This document shows positions 31,911 to 38,212 of a stretch of DNA of 64,000 nt, in pieces. The translations under genes were made by a program, and so were the position numbers. The notes beneath the pieces are model-generated. The model was given only the letters and a program-made list of their open reading frames with translations. It was not told the origin of the DNA and did not search any database. Every line of letters begins with the position of its first letter. Position 1 is the stretch's first letter. Source of the stretch: Candidatus Stahliibacteriota bacterium. GTDB taxonomy: Bacteria > Hydrothermota > Tepidihabitantia > B3-TA06. The stretch covers positions 1-64,000 of the forward strand of contig SOJW01000056.1 of assembly GCA_004375895.1 (NCBI GenBank). Direction: 5' to 3'.

Positions 31911-31944
31911 TGCGATCTTTTTAGCCGGAGGCTAAAAAGGAGCA
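31911..31944 (-). repeat. Family A repeat, copy 4, overlapping a gene end
   Basis: TGCGATC, TTTTT, stem AGCC/GGCT, AAAAA, GGAGCA. On the minus strand it supplies the last codons (CSFLASG) and the stop of the methyltransferase-like gene. Confidence 0.85.
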
Positions 31945-32505
31945 CACTGGGATGAAGCAGAGTCTCAAAAACGCAAACAGATATAGGAGACCTACCACGA
32001 TCCACGTCTGATACTCACGAAGTGCCCAGGAAAGCTTGAACCTGCGAAACAAGGGACCTTCGAATCGCCTGGGGAAGAAGGGGGAAACCCTTTGGCGGTA
32101 TTCGTCATACTCCTTGCCGTGCTTCAGAGAAAGATGCTTCTCCTCGGCTCTGGCGATCAGGATGTAGAGTATTAAGAATCCTATTGCCGTCAGGCTCGTA
32201 AGAATCCAATGAGGTCTGAGCAGGAGGAGCCCTGCTAGGACCAGAAAGGCATTACCTATATACAAAGGGTGTCTTGCAAGGGCGTAAGGGCCGCGGGTGG
32301 CTAAATGATCCGCTGAAATAGAAGGTTTGCGCGAGGTCGGACCTATGAAACCCGCGGCCCAGAACCTTATCAGAAGTCCTGGTATAAAAAGAACTGCGCT
32401 CCATACACTTATCCAGGGATGGGAAAAGGCGAGCAGCAAAAGCACCCACAGCGCTGCAAGGACGCTGCGGGTACGGAAGAGGATTTGGTCTAAAGGAACC
32501 TTCAA
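31921..32505 (-). CDS. Isoprenylcysteine-methyltransferase-like membrane protein (ICMT/PEMT superfamily)
   Basis: A 194-residue integral membrane protein with 4-5 helices and the SAM-binding signature LARHPLYIGNAFLVLAGLLL, followed by EEKHLSLKHGKEYDEYRQRV. Bacterial members methylate lipids or small molecules; the substrate is unknown. It starts at TTG 32505 with a weak AAGAAGG site. The final residues come from a family A repeat, which may have shifted the stop. Confidence 0.8.
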   Translation of the reverse strand: MKVPLDQILFRTRSVLAALWVLLLLAFSHPWISVWSAVLFIPGLLIRFWAAGFIGPTSRKPSISADHLATRGPYALARHPLYIGNAFLVLAGLLLLRPHWILTSLTAIGFLILYILIARAEEKHLSLKHGKEYDEYRQRVSPFFPRRFEGPLFRRFKLSWALREYQTWIVVGLLYLFAFLRLCFIPVCSFLASG

Positions 32506-32820: not shown

Positions 32821-33162
32821 TCAATGCAGGTAAATCTCTACCTTCTTGCCTTCTTCGTCCTTTACCTCGAACACCTTGCCGGGCTGTGCCTGGTCCAAAG
32901 CCGCAAGGATGGTATCGGCAGGGATCTCCTGTTTAGCAAGCACACTCGCAGGGATGAAGTTCATGGCGAATCGCGCCAGGGACAGAGGCAGGTTGATCCT
33001 CACGTTGGGCTTCTCCTTATCTTTCTCGAAGATCAAGAGGGTTATTTCCCGAGCCTGAGGTCTTGCACCTTCTATGGCTTCAATCAGCTTCTCCGCCTGT
33101 TCTGCCGATATCTTTCCTTCGCTTACCATTCGCAGGATACGCAGGGTGGCTTCGCTACTCAT
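32821..33162 (-). CDS. SHOCT-like-module protein, last gene of the shared-module operon
   Basis: A 113-residue soluble protein. The N-terminus (about 5-30) is the short helical module EATLRILRMVSEGKISAEQAEKLIEAIE (given elsewhere in parts), shared with four neighbours. The rest is an alpha/beta segment with PNVRINLPLSLARFAMNFIP and a Lys/Glu-rich end, resembling parts of YvlB/LiaX-type proteins. I chose ATG 33162 (MSSEATL), overlapping the preceding gene by 8 bases. Confidence 0.7.
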   Translation of the reverse strand: MSSEATLRILRMVSEGKISAEQAEKLIEAIEGARPQAREITLLIFEKDKEKPNVRINLPLSLARFAMNFIPASVLAKQEIPADTILAALDQAQPGKVFEVKDEEGKKVEIYLH

Positions 33163-33634
33163 GACGGCAGCTTCCTTTGCGCTTGGAGCAACGTATCTCC
33201 TCCACCGCCTCATCAACGTCTATCTCGCCGTCCTCAAGCTTGTCTATTACAACGCTTACCTTGCGGGGCCGTTTGCGAGCTTTGTGGACTATCACGCTAA
33301 GGATTATCATGATTCCCACTACCACGATCAAGGCCCACCACCACTGGCCGAACCCGGCTATCAGCCCGATATTGGAGAACCAGATGGCTAATCCTACCGC
33401 CACTAACAAAAGCGCCCGGAAGGTTTTACTGCCAACATGTTTGAATTGGATTCCTCTCCTTGAGCGTCTTATCACCGACTGGATCAGTTCCACCAGACCG
33501 AGAAGTCCGATGATCACAAAGATTATGGGCCAGGCGACTTTGAAGGCGAAGGTTTGCGGGGCAACACTCGATCCCAGCCAGATCCAGAATCCGATCCAGA
33601 CTACAACCAAACCCCAGAATATCCCGCGGATCAT
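33155..33634 (-). CDS. Four-helix membrane protein with C-terminal SHOCT-like module
   Basis: A 159-residue protein. Hydrophobic segments lie at about 4-24, 32-52, 70-88 and 96-115, a layout like LiaF/YvlD-type or DUF5668 membrane domains. The cytoplasmic tail carries VVIDKLEDGEIDVDEAVEEI, the same module as its neighbours. The ATG overlaps the small membrane gene's TGA (ATGA). Function unknown; probably an envelope-stress component. Confidence 0.7.
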   Translation of the reverse strand: MIRGIFWGLVVVWIGFWIWLGSSVAPQTFAFKVAWPIIFVIIGLLGLVELIQSVIRRSRRGIQFKHVGSKTFRALLLVAVGLAIWFSNIGLIAGFGQWWWALIVVVGIMIILSVIVHKARKRPRKVSVVIDKLEDGEIDVDEAVEEIRCSKRKGSCRHE

Positions 33635-33792
33635 CTTGCTCTCCTTTCAGATCGGGTACGTATCTTGACAGCTTCCAGCTTTTGTTCTTCTCTGCGTTTG
33701 AGCAGGAGGTAAAGACCCGTAGGAATCCCAGCTAAGACGAGGGTAACTATCCCCACTGTAACTAGCAAGTTATAAACGAGTCCTGATATCAT
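33631..33792 (-). CDS. Small single-pass membrane protein, 53 residues
   Basis: Reads MISGLVYNLLVTVGIVTLVL then AGIPTGLYLLLKRREEQKLE, with a basic tail. One transmembrane helix spans about 5-31. It starts on the last base of the DUF4097 stop (TGATG) behind AAAAGGAG and ends in an ATGA overlap with the next gene, so it is tightly built into the operon. No known family recognised. Confidence 0.7.
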   Translation of the reverse strand: MISGLVYNLLVTVGIVTLVLAGIPTGLYLLLKRREEQKLEAVKIRTRSERRAR

Positions 33793-34658
33793 CAGATTCT
33801 CCTTTTACGGATGTTTAAATCACCTCTCTTAAGTTTGACGTAAAGTTTCGCTTCAGGTTTCCCGATAACGGCTTTGAGTTCATCCTCTTCGTCAGAAGGC
33901 TCAAGGTCGAAGTCGCTTGAGATGTCTCCATATTTGGGTTTGTGGATGGTAAGCTCAACGTTTGCCTTTTCAGGGATTGTGAGATTGATATCCCCACCAC
34001 CGAGCTCGATGCGTCCCACCCCTCGGCATGCCGAAAGGTCCAGGTCTATATCACCACCACCTACCTTAATGTTGAGTTCGGCAGAGATATCCTTGCCTGC
34101 CAGATCGCCTCCGCCCACGCCTGCGGAGAGTTTGCCGGCGATATTCTCCAGATCCAAATCGCCTCTACCGATGCGCACTGTGAGTTCCGAATCGAGGTTG
34201 CTTACCGATACATCGCCAGCGGCTGCCTTCATCACCACTTTCTGGGATTTCGGGACCTTTACGTCAAGGTCTCCGGACATGACCTTGATGGCCAGCTCGT
34301 TTTCGGTTTCGTTTACCTTATGTCCGCCCTGAAGCTTGATGCGGATGGATTGCTCGTCATCCCCAGTGATCCTCACATCGCCTGCTACCGCCTTGACGGT
34401 AAATCGTTCCCTGGGGTCGAACTTGAGTTCCTTTTCTGCACCTTTGGTGGCAAACCAGATGTTGCGTTCGATCATCTCAGGCAGGCCTTTGAGAGAAAGC
34501 TCCACCTTACGGGCGATTCGCTTGCCGAGGTCAGGACCTGGTCCGTGTCTCGGAGCCCAGCGGTAGGTCTCGCCTAAGGCGTTAAGGAGTTTGGCAGCCT
34601 CGTCGGCGTTTATCTTGCCCTCCTCCAATAACTTAAGGATTCGTTCTCTTTCTTCCAT
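33792..34658 (-). CDS. DUF4097 beta-helix protein with N-terminal SHOCT-like module (YvlB/LiaX-like)
   Basis: A 288-residue protein. Residues ~4-30 hold ERILKLLEEGKINADEAAKL, the shared module. From ~95 on there are regular short beta repeats (VKVMSGDLDVKVP, VKAAAGDVSVSN, VRIGRGDLDLENI, VGGGDLAGKDIS, VGGGDIDLDLS), typical of the DUF4097 right-handed helix. Bacillus YvlB and enterococcal LiaX have the same architecture and belong to cell-envelope stress responses. There is no signal peptide. Confidence 0.85.
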   Translation of the reverse strand: MEERERILKLLEEGKINADEAAKLLNALGETYRWAPRHGPGPDLGKRIARKVELSLKGLPEMIERNIWFATKGAEKELKFDPRERFTVKAVAGDVRITGDDEQSIRIKLQGGHKVNETENELAIKVMSGDLDVKVPKSQKVVMKAAAGDVSVSNLDSELTVRIGRGDLDLENIAGKLSAGVGGGDLAGKDISAELNIKVGGGDIDLDLSACRGVGRIELGGGDINLTIPEKANVELTIHKPKYGDISSDFDLEPSDEEDELKAVIGKPEAKLYVKLKRGDLNIRKRRI

Positions 34659-34668
34659 TCCTTCCTCC

Positions 34669-34968
34669 TCAGCCGTAGCAGCCGAACGTCATGAGCTCGA
34701 TATCTTCGGGGTCCTCGCAACACTCGCCCCTCATCTTGACGATCACCTTCTTATGAGGGGGGTGGCAGCAGGTGTCGAAGTGATGCCTGCCGAAGCTGTG
34801 CTTGATGAACATCGGTCCACAATGTGGGTGAGCGTGTGCGTTACTGGCGTAGCTGTGCTTTAAGGCTTCCAGGAGTTTGGCCGCCTCATCCGCTGTTATC
34901 TTGCCGTCTTCCAGAAGCTTGAGGATTCTTTCCTTTGGATTCATTGTCTTCTCCACTTGTTCTTTCAC
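34669..34968 (-). CDS. His/Cys-rich protein with N-terminal SHOCT-like module
   Basis: A 99-residue protein. The module ERILKLLEDGKITADEAAKL lies at about 13-32. After it, HAHPHCGPMFIKHSFGRHHF, DTCCHPPHKK and GECCEDPED make a region with about ten His and six Cys, suggesting metal binding. GTG 34968 is preceded by AAGGAGG five bases upstream. Paralogous to the N-terminus of the next gene. Family unknown. Confidence 0.7.
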   Translation of the reverse strand: MKEQVEKTMNPKERILKLLEDGKITADEAAKLLEALKHSYASNAHAHPHCGPMFIKHSFGRHHFDTCCHPPHKKVIVKMRGECCEDPEDIELMTFGCYG

Positions 34969-34979
34969 GTCTTCCTCCT

Positions 34980-35363
34980 TTATTCTTCTTCTGACTCTTC
35001 TTTTTTGATGAGCTTTACCGCGTCCTCTGCAGAGAGCTCGCCTGCTTCAAGTTTATCAAGTACGTCACTTATCTCTTCATGGGAGGCGCGGGCGGTGATG
35101 ATGCCCATCTTGGCCAGTAATGCGTCCAGGCGGTTACGCACCGTAGGGTAGGAGAGCGCAAGTTCCCTTTGTACGTCTCTTAGGCTGCCCCTGGAGCGCA
35201 GGAAGATCATCAAAAACTCGCGCTCATCGTCTGTAAGTCGCGAGAACATGGGAACTTCAAACTCCCCCCGGATCTTTACCTCGCACTCGCGGCAGCTAAG
35301 TTCCGAAATATAGAGACTTCCGTTACAGGCCGGACATCGTCCGATGAGTTTCTTCTCAGTCAT
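34980..35363 (-). CDS. DUF2089-family zinc-ribbon/HTH transcriptional regulator
   Basis: A 127-residue regulator and the first gene of the operon. A zinc ribbon (CPACNGSLYISELSCREC) is followed by a FSRLTDDEREFLMIFLRSRG and SLRDVQRELALSYPTVRNRL helix-turn-helix. The C-terminus carries VLDKLEAGELSAEDAVKLIK, the module found in the proteins it probably controls. It starts six bases after a perfect -10 box and is leaderless. Autoregulation is inferred from position. Confidence 0.85.
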   Translation of the reverse strand: MTEKKLIGRCPACNGSLYISELSCRECEVKIRGEFEVPMFSRLTDDEREFLMIFLRSRGSLRDVQRELALSYPTVRNRLDALLAKMGIITARASHEEISDVLDKLEAGELSAEDAVKLIKKEESEEE

Positions 35364-35369
35364 GGTGAA

Positions 35370-35397
35370 ATTATAGTGAATTTTTGAACTTTGTCAA
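35370..35397 (-). promoter_or_regulatory. Promoter of the shared-module operon
   Basis: TTGACA, 16 bp, TATAAT, then TTCACC and ATG: both boxes are perfect and the message should be leaderless. Confidence 0.88.
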
Positions 35398-35529
35398 GTC
35401 CCTCTTGAACAATGTTAAACTAATTGGGTGAAATTAAGAATTTCAGTTAATCGGAAGTAAACTTTATCCCCAAATCGGCATCGGCCATCCCGCACCCGTC
35501 GCGTCAGGTTTACATCGCACTCGTCACAA

Positions 35530-35584
35530 AAAAGCTGGTCAAAAGCTGGTCAAAAGCTGGTCAAAAGCTGGACAAAAGCTGGAC
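35530..35584 (+). repeat. Tandem 11-bp repeat, five copies
   Basis: AAAAGCTGGTC three times, then AAAAGCTGGAC twice. The near-helical period keeps each A4 tract on almost the same face of the DNA. Confidence 0.9.
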
Positions 35585-35736
35585 AAATGACAGCTCACGG
35601 CTGACGGCTAACAGCTGACGGCAGGGGATGCGCTTTATAGTTCCCCCTCCACAAAGGGAGGGGGAATCTCTTTTTTAACCACAGATTGAAACTCGTTTCA
35701 CTCGTTTCCCTTCGGAACGCAGATTTTCACAGATTG

Positions 35737-37090: not shown

Positions 37091-38179
37091 TTACTCTTCA
37101 ATTCTAACCGGCGTCCCTACCTTTACCATCTTCTTCAGTTCTTCCACGTCCTCGTTTCTCATCCGGATGCAGCCCTCGGTGGCGCGGGTGCCGATCGATG
37201 CCTCATCGTGTGTGCCGTGGATCGCAATACCTACCCACTGTTTCCCAGATTTTGTCTGCGACGCCAGTGTCGAGAGCCGCAAAAACCACGGGCCGTAAGC
37301 TCCAGAAATCGGCCCCTTGCCGTCACCGAAGTCGTGTTCCCAGGTGTGCGAATCCTCAATCGAGGTGATCGTAAAATCTCCCTCGGGCGTGCGATTGTCA
37401 CCCACCCTCTGCTTGTCCCCGCGTCTCTTGCCGATAGCCACAGGGTAGGTCTTTATGAGGGTGCCGTCCTTGAAGATCAAAAGCTCAAACAGCAACTTCT
37501 TCACAACGATCGAGATACCCCTGGAGTGCTTAGCCTTTGTGGTTGGATTCAGCATATCCGCGCCAAGCACCAGTACCATATCCACAAGATTGGTTCGCAC
37601 CTCAACCCTACCCGTTCTCAGGTAGCCTATGAGCTTCTCGGCAAGCGGGACGTCGCCAGGGGAGCAGAACAGGATAGTCTGCTTAACCGTATGGGAATCC
37701 GCGTCCTGAGGCTGGAGCGGGAAGAGACCGAATCTTTTGTTGAATCTATAGGAGACGTCGCGCGCAAGACCTGCTTTTGAGGTCCCGTTGAGCACGAGTA
37801 TCCGCCTCGAGAAGGGCATCGAATCGAAGCTAAGCCCGTTGATTCCCGTCCAGACGTGAATCTCTCCTTTTGTCTCACCATTGACGATCTCGGCTTGGGG
37901 AAAGATGGGATCAAGTGCATTGAGTCGCCTTCTGTCTCTGGGGTGGACGCAGATGCGCGTATCTATCTGATAGGCCGCTGACATGTCCGGCTCCCCCACC
38001 GAGTCGGGTAATCCCAGTGAATCGAGCAAGATTTTTGTTCGCTTCGTAGGGAACGAGATCTTTCGCAGCTCGGTATATCCTGAACAGGAGTTGTGCAGTA
38101 TAAGGGTCGGCGGCTTGGGTTTGCAGGCGAGGAGTAAGAGCATCGATATGGAAAGGAACCAGAGAACTTTTTGTCTCAT
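37091..38179 (-). CDS. Lipoprotein L,D-transpeptidase (YkuD) with LytR C-terminal-type domain
   Basis: A 362-residue lipoprotein (MRQKVLWFLSISMLLLLAC, Cys19 anchor). A middle segment RRILVLNGTSKAGLARDVSY has the LytR_C look. The C-terminal YkuD domain should cross-link peptidoglycan: IAIHGTHDEASIG and ATEGCIRMRNEDVEEL, with the catalytic Cys in a TEGCIRM context instead of the usual SxGCIRM. ATG 38179 lies five bases after a -10 box. The longer frame starts upstream of the promoter. Confidence 0.85.
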   Translation of the reverse strand: MRQKVLWFLSISMLLLLACKPKPPTLILHNSCSGYTELRKISFPTKRTKILLDSLGLPDSVGEPDMSAAYQIDTRICVHPRDRRRLNALDPIFPQAEIVNGETKGEIHVWTGINGLSFDSMPFSRRILVLNGTSKAGLARDVSYRFNKRFGLFPLQPQDADSHTVKQTILFCSPGDVPLAEKLIGYLRTGRVEVRTNLVDMVLVLGADMLNPTTKAKHSRGISIVVKKLLFELLIFKDGTLIKTYPVAIGKRRGDKQRVGDNRTPEGDFTITSIEDSHTWEHDFGDGKGPISGAYGPWFLRLSTLASQTKSGKQWVGIAIHGTHDEASIGTRATEGCIRMRNEDVEELKKMVKVGTPVRIEE

Positions 38180-38184
38180 AAAAC

Positions 38185-38212
38185 AGTCTATGCGGGTAGA
38201 AGGGATTGTCAA
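38185..38212 (-). promoter_or_regulatory. Promoter of the L,D-transpeptidase gene
   Basis: TTGACA, 16 bp, TAGACT, then GTTTT and ATG; leaderless arrangement. Confidence 0.75.

Follow-up and report, generated by a model that had tools for sequence, protein, structure and literature searches.

SHOCT and SHOCT-like domains occur widely, and we know of no established function for them. In an in silico study, Ravi et al. (2024) described a four-gene Toastrack context in which the DUF2089 protein consists of a zinc ribbon, an HTH and a SHOCT-like domain, and proposed Lia-like signalling from the membrane to transcription (PMC11237479). In the parts of that paper available to us, the SHOCT-like domain lies at the C-terminus of the DUF2089 protein and at the N-terminus of the Toastrack protein, the partner is a LiaI-LiaF-TM protein and the operon is free of PspA, which outlines a predicted, widespread membrane-to-gene signalling system of tagged regulator, β-helix and membrane protein. 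LiaX, a Toastrack-type protein whose N-terminus is similar, takes part in the response of enterococci to daptomycin. DUF2089 proteins are also found in clusters for leaderless bacteriocins, with no function known for them there. Our literature search found no paper testing the SHOCT-like domain in the DUF2089/Toastrack context.

We analyzed a window of 64,000 nucleotides from a Candidatus Stahliibacteriota bacterium, in which one operon has the gene context of Ravi et al. as far as the accessible text describes it, with a DUF2089 protein of the zinc ribbon-HTH-SHOCT-like type beside a Toastrack protein and a membrane protein assigned to LiaI-LiaF-TM at the family level. A sequence-only reading had singled out this operon as a candidate for an undescribed signalling system. 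The word undescribed has to be given up, since the DUF2089/Toastrack/SHOCT-like neighbourhood and a Lia-like role for it appear in the available parts of the 2024 paper (PMC11237479), and a single Pfam family already covers both the C-terminus of DUF2089 and the N-terminus of Toastrack. The present analysis adds the completeness of the tagging and the non-detection of PspA and PspC, as well as the tagged membrane protein, the movable position of the module (at the C-terminus of some Toastrack proteins), a variable His/Cys-rich slot and the promoter; the last four, and the new domain of protein F, are not described in the accessible parts of that paper.

Like the Lia system (LiaFSR-LiaX, LiaIHGFSR), the operon combines a Toastrack protein with a membrane protein that is of LiaI/LiaF type by its family, its module resembles the N-terminus of LiaX, and the HTH of its regulator is LiaR-like in fold. 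It differs in that the operon has no histidine kinase or response regulator (no kinase or receiver protein was found among its six genes), the regulator being one protein with its own module. With the PSP response (PspA/PspC, YvlABCD) it shares a Toastrack protein with an N-terminal SHOCT-like module, as in YvlB, and a membrane partner, but no PspA or PspC was matched in this genome, which is ~90% complete, so that their absence is not certain. The module is, like the SHOCT domain, a short bi-helical terminal domain of many unrelated proteins (PMC3581485); here, in contrast, it is SHOCT-like (PF22746) and repeated on nearly all members of one operon.

Organization of the operon

The six ORFs, named A to F, form a tight operon on the minus strand, running from 35363 down to 32821, and are co-directional and overlapping or nearly abutting. 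Gene A (34980–35363) encodes the DUF2089 transcription regulator, with a zinc ribbon, a LuxR/LiaR-type HTH and a SHOCT-like C-terminus (residues 96–127) in that order and four invariant cysteines. It matched PF22747 (3e-11) and PF09862 (2.4e-19) above the cut-offs and PF22746 just below. The AlphaFold model of A (pLDDT 76) placed a helix pair at 95–106/112–125, and the best fold matches, all with weak E-values, were the HTH domains of VpsT, DosR, LiaR and VraR.

Gene B (34669–34944) encodes a small protein with the module at its N-terminus followed by a His/Cys-rich tail. Gene C (33792–34658) encodes a Toastrack (DUF4097) protein with an N-terminal module; it matched PF13349 at 5.8e-18 (65.6 bits; cut-off 22.9), and its closest named relative, at 78% identity, was from a 'candidate division WOR-3' genome. 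Two further Toastrack genes in the same genome (G000:C72:2558-3340, L002; G000:C69:30996-31532, L003) had no detectable SHOCT-like module. Gene D (33631–33792) overlaps its neighbours C and E at both ends. Its product is the 53-residue, single-TM membrane protein that the sequence-only reading had placed in the set; the frame was confirmed, no module was found in it, and relatives of D turned up solely within the same family.

Gene E (33155–33634) encodes a membrane protein of probable LiaI/LiaF type with four TM helices (two or four among E proteins), a basic stretch and a C-terminal module. All 15 members of the E family matched PF22570 (LiaF-TM) and 14 of the 15 matched PF18917 at E-values up to 0.5 (best 7e-9; 0.1 for the window copy), which points at the family level to LiaF-TM/LiaI-TM. 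By the positive-inside rule, the E hairpin is predicted to be cytoplasmic. Gene F (32821–33162) encodes an N-terminal module and a C-terminal domain of ~80 residues that matched no Pfam or NCBIfam name; the AlphaFold model of F was too weak (pLDDT 64) to assign this domain a fold, and Foldseek gave no usable match.

Outside the operon and on the same strand are two envelope-related genes, one for a phospholipid/isoprenylcysteine methyltransferase-like membrane protein downstream (31921–32505) and one for an L,D-transpeptidase (YkuD) upstream (37091–38212).

A SHOCT-like module on five of six products

The motif common to A, B, C, E and F corresponds to the Pfam family PF22746 ("SHOCT-like_DUF2089-C"). 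Three copies scored above its gathering cut-off of 27 bits: B (5e-12, 45.4 bits), C (3e-10, 39.8) and F (6e-10, 38.8). The copy in A, after whose position the family is named, was just under it (3.7e-5, 23.6 bits). The copy in E was non-significant by itself (0.12, 12.4 bits), and 10 of 15 E homologues matched PF22746 (best 2e-6), supporting the E copy at the family level. As the sequence-only reading had stated, the module is at the C-terminus of A and E and at the N-terminus of B, C and F, and is absent from D. A genome-wide search returned four matches to the module, every one in this operon.

We compared ungapped BLOSUM62 scores of 25-residue pairs with those of 43,261 segments of the window's other frames, and with 20,000 shuffles. 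Nine of the ten module pairs outscored all 43,261 segments, and 0–4 of the 20,000 shuffles reached them; the E-F pair was not distinctive, with 11 segments scoring equal or better. The earlier proposal that five of the six proteins share one module was thus upheld by the PF22746 matches, the E family and the similarity above chance, and random helical similarity was not borne out.

The consensus sequences of the module were dvld.LE.GeiSaeeAv.ll for A, vIIdkLE.GkIdVdeAv.EI for E, rILKlLEeGKItAdEAaRLLEA for C and lrILkMveEGKItaEEA.kLL.A for F. The nearest neighbour of a module copy was the same gene elsewhere in 20/24 cases for A, 26/27 for C and 14/17 for E, and the copies in B, C and F grouped as a single cluster. 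Module identity was the same within loci as between genomes (0.36 and 0.36 for A-C; 0.56 and 0.55 for C-F), which gives no sign of pairwise co-variation or co-evolution of the modules. The B and C modules have 22 residues in common, 9 of them with different codons, so neither was recently copied from the other. A recent origin of the module copies by duplication or gene conversion was ruled out by the gene-wise clustering, the equal same-locus and cross-genome identities and the differing B/C codons. In three relatives (L078, L082, L083) the Toastrack module lies at the C-terminus instead, suggesting that the tag itself is kept and not its place. From these comparisons, the hairpin appears to be maintained by selection as a tag, each copy being inherited along with its gene.

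The five hairpins range from neutral to acidic. Charge pairing of the A and E hairpins with those of C and F was therefore unsupported, and simple charge pairing is unlikely.

Conservation across relatives

Among 61 relatives of the same class, the module was found in 48 and DUF2089 in 43, and each clear DUF2089 gene adjoined further module genes (tables read by eye). The association between DUF2089 and module presence had p 1e-9 in a Fisher test, which is weak evidence because DUF2089 is itself module-bearing and the genomes are related. DUF2089 matches also turned up in the control genomes of Thermus, Deinobacterium and Thermotoga. Near full-length homologues of F occurred in 34/61 relatives. 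At 20 class loci read gene by gene, A, C, E-type proteins and F carried the module at unchanged ends, some loci lacking one or more of these genes. Loci L005, L006, L008, L009 and L011 were in agreement; at L006 (Hydrothermota) four consecutive neighbours carried the module.

Further away, locus counts were taken from domain-only models; whole-protein iterative HMMs merged all families through the common module. At 20 further loci of the phylum, the module was present on F in 18, on A in 16, on C in 15 and on a TM protein in 10, with a permuted gene order (C-F-E-A) at L089, L091 and L092. At 15 loci of one Bacillota class, it was present on A in 15, on a long Toastrack-like protein in 14 and on F in 14, and no tagged membrane protein was seen in these 15. 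The sequence-only reading had staked its case on homologues staying together in related genomes. As annotated from sequence, the DUF2089 regulator, the Toastrack protein, the LiaI/LiaF-type membrane protein and F cluster across the WOR-3 phylum, and the regulator, Toastrack protein and F also do so in Bacillota, so that this part of the claim stood.

Promoter and candidate operator

Gene A is preceded by a sigma-70-type promoter, TTGACA-16-TATAAT (35370–35397, minus strand), with 12/12 consensus bases and a -10 element ending 6 nt before the ATG. Since the zinc-ribbon cysteines follow immediately after this ATG, the start of A is likely right and its mRNA probably leaderless. Among 56 A genes checked, 31 had a promoter with at least 10/12 consensus bases, and in 24 of those 31 the start codon lay 4–9 nt past the -10. 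This layout was present in many WOR-3 relatives and missing from most Bacillota loci.

A candidate operator, GTTCAA-N7-TTGACA-NN-GTTCAA (35384–35410, minus strand), overlaps the -35 and is conserved in the genus and family, where GTTMAA boxes flank the -35 on both sides. The mean pairwise identity upstream of A was 82% at -21 to -60 and 22–32% past -100. The exact pattern had a single match in the 2.2 Mb genome, and at 3 mismatches 0.11 matches were expected per window. The repeat boxes resemble an autoregulatory operator and are assigned to A, as a candidate, by position. A perfect promoter with boxes over its -35 would suggest a repressor.

We also considered a wider regulon and rejected it, as the exact operator occurs once in the genome and 3-mismatch matches were no commoner than those of a reversed control. 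Directly upstream of the operon (35530–35622) is a tandem array of 5.3 copies of AAAAGCTGGTC followed by TGACGGCTAACAGC repeats, and similar 'gaccatcttttgaccatc' repeats occur upstream of L046.

Proposed mechanism

Envelope signalling, as put forward by the sequence-only reading, fits the presence of one tag on the regulator A, the membrane protein E and the YvlB/LiaX-type Toastrack protein C in an operon whose conservation extends well past the genus. By analogy with the distant relatives YvlB, LiaX and LiaF, the operon likely serves membrane-linked stress. Our main reading, to which we give a probability of about 0.45, is a PspA/PspC-independent, Lia-like membrane-stress operon with a hairpin-docked platform capturing A.

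The genes present, their conservation and the promoter sequence are shown; the steps of this reading are inferred, and hairpin docking is predicted. The hairpin of E would be held at the cytoplasmic face of the membrane, and C, F and B would gather at E by means of their hairpins, either contacting one another hairpin to hairpin or competing for one docking site, to form a sub-membrane platform. The hairpin beside the HTH would let A be recruited to this platform. Away from it, A would occupy the repeat boxes that overlie the -35 element of its own promoter and repress the operon. Envelope damage that altered E or C would lead the platform to capture A, and derepression of the operon would yield more platform. 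We consider it an even bet that the module is a docking tag within the operon set. That A is a repressor relieved by sequestration is proposed more tentatively, with activator or release models as the alternatives. An extended version, which we regard as doubtful, is a one-component membrane-to-DNA circuit in which one interchangeable hairpin would be the docking code for anchor, scaffold, co-factors and regulator, with a slot for new His/Cys-rich tagged adaptors, a self-shut perfect promoter and a leaderless regulator mRNA.

If hairpin docking does bring the regulator to the membrane, Bacillota and WOR-3 would commonly have a path from envelope to gene that needs no kinase. An operon with nearly every member tagged, membrane protein and regulator included, is a closed set for a direct test of SHOCT-like function.

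One SHOCT domain, when fused to CD4, failed to oligomerise (PMC3581485). This result and the missing co-variation are compatible with different module copies binding each other or sharing a docking site. They also agree with the strongest alternative, which we nevertheless hold to be unlikely, namely that amphipathic hairpins bind the inner membrane face individually and without mutual recognition, the proteins clustering through a common surface. A leaflet-anchor role of this kind is suggested for SHOCT-like domains in the available text of Ravi et al. (PMC11237479). However, E, already an integral membrane protein, still keeps its module, a fact that anchoring does not readily explain, and the neutral-to-acidic hairpins disfavour binding to anionic lipids.

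It seems less probable still that the hairpins dock all members on one outside protein, such as a protease, a chaperone or RNA polymerase, and serve as a common tag for recognition or turnover. Such a partner would explain why unrelated proteins keep one sequence under purifying selection at one or the other terminus, with no contact between the copies, but it would have to be a dedicated one, because the module is confined to one operon in the genome, and none was seen in the neighbourhood.

The variable slot between A and C

The position between A and C, where B lies, is variable, and in relatives it holds more module proteins with Cys/His tails. Paralogues of B were found in L042, L046, L047 and L048 and were absent from L043–L045. 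A class I SAM methyltransferase lies between A and C in L043 (3041–3640), L044 (1776–2354), L045 (4165–4779), L046 (4486–5091) and L047 (6556–7101) and is absent at this position in the window, and L047 has a MATE transporter (MatE) between C and D.

The tail of B, a Cys-rich B paralogue in L042 and the methyltransferase and MatE genes of these relatives would suit a response to metal or redox stress, sensed by the zinc ribbon of A and the His/Cys tails of B and relieved by detoxification through the methyltransferase and MATE transporter. We find this improbable, as B, the methyltransferase and the transporter were seen in one family only and the conserved core occurs without them. Plain domain shuffling, by which the hairpin spread through duplication in the operon with no common role, could draw on the shortness of the module and on the several paralogous small module proteins in L046 and L047, but it is largely refuted by old, gene-distinct copies that persist over phyla on nearly all members.

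At L042 (4523–4750), the module carries a fused tail in which CCE motifs are repeated (CCEPKDECCESTSDECCETKDEECCEPD) and which may bind metal.
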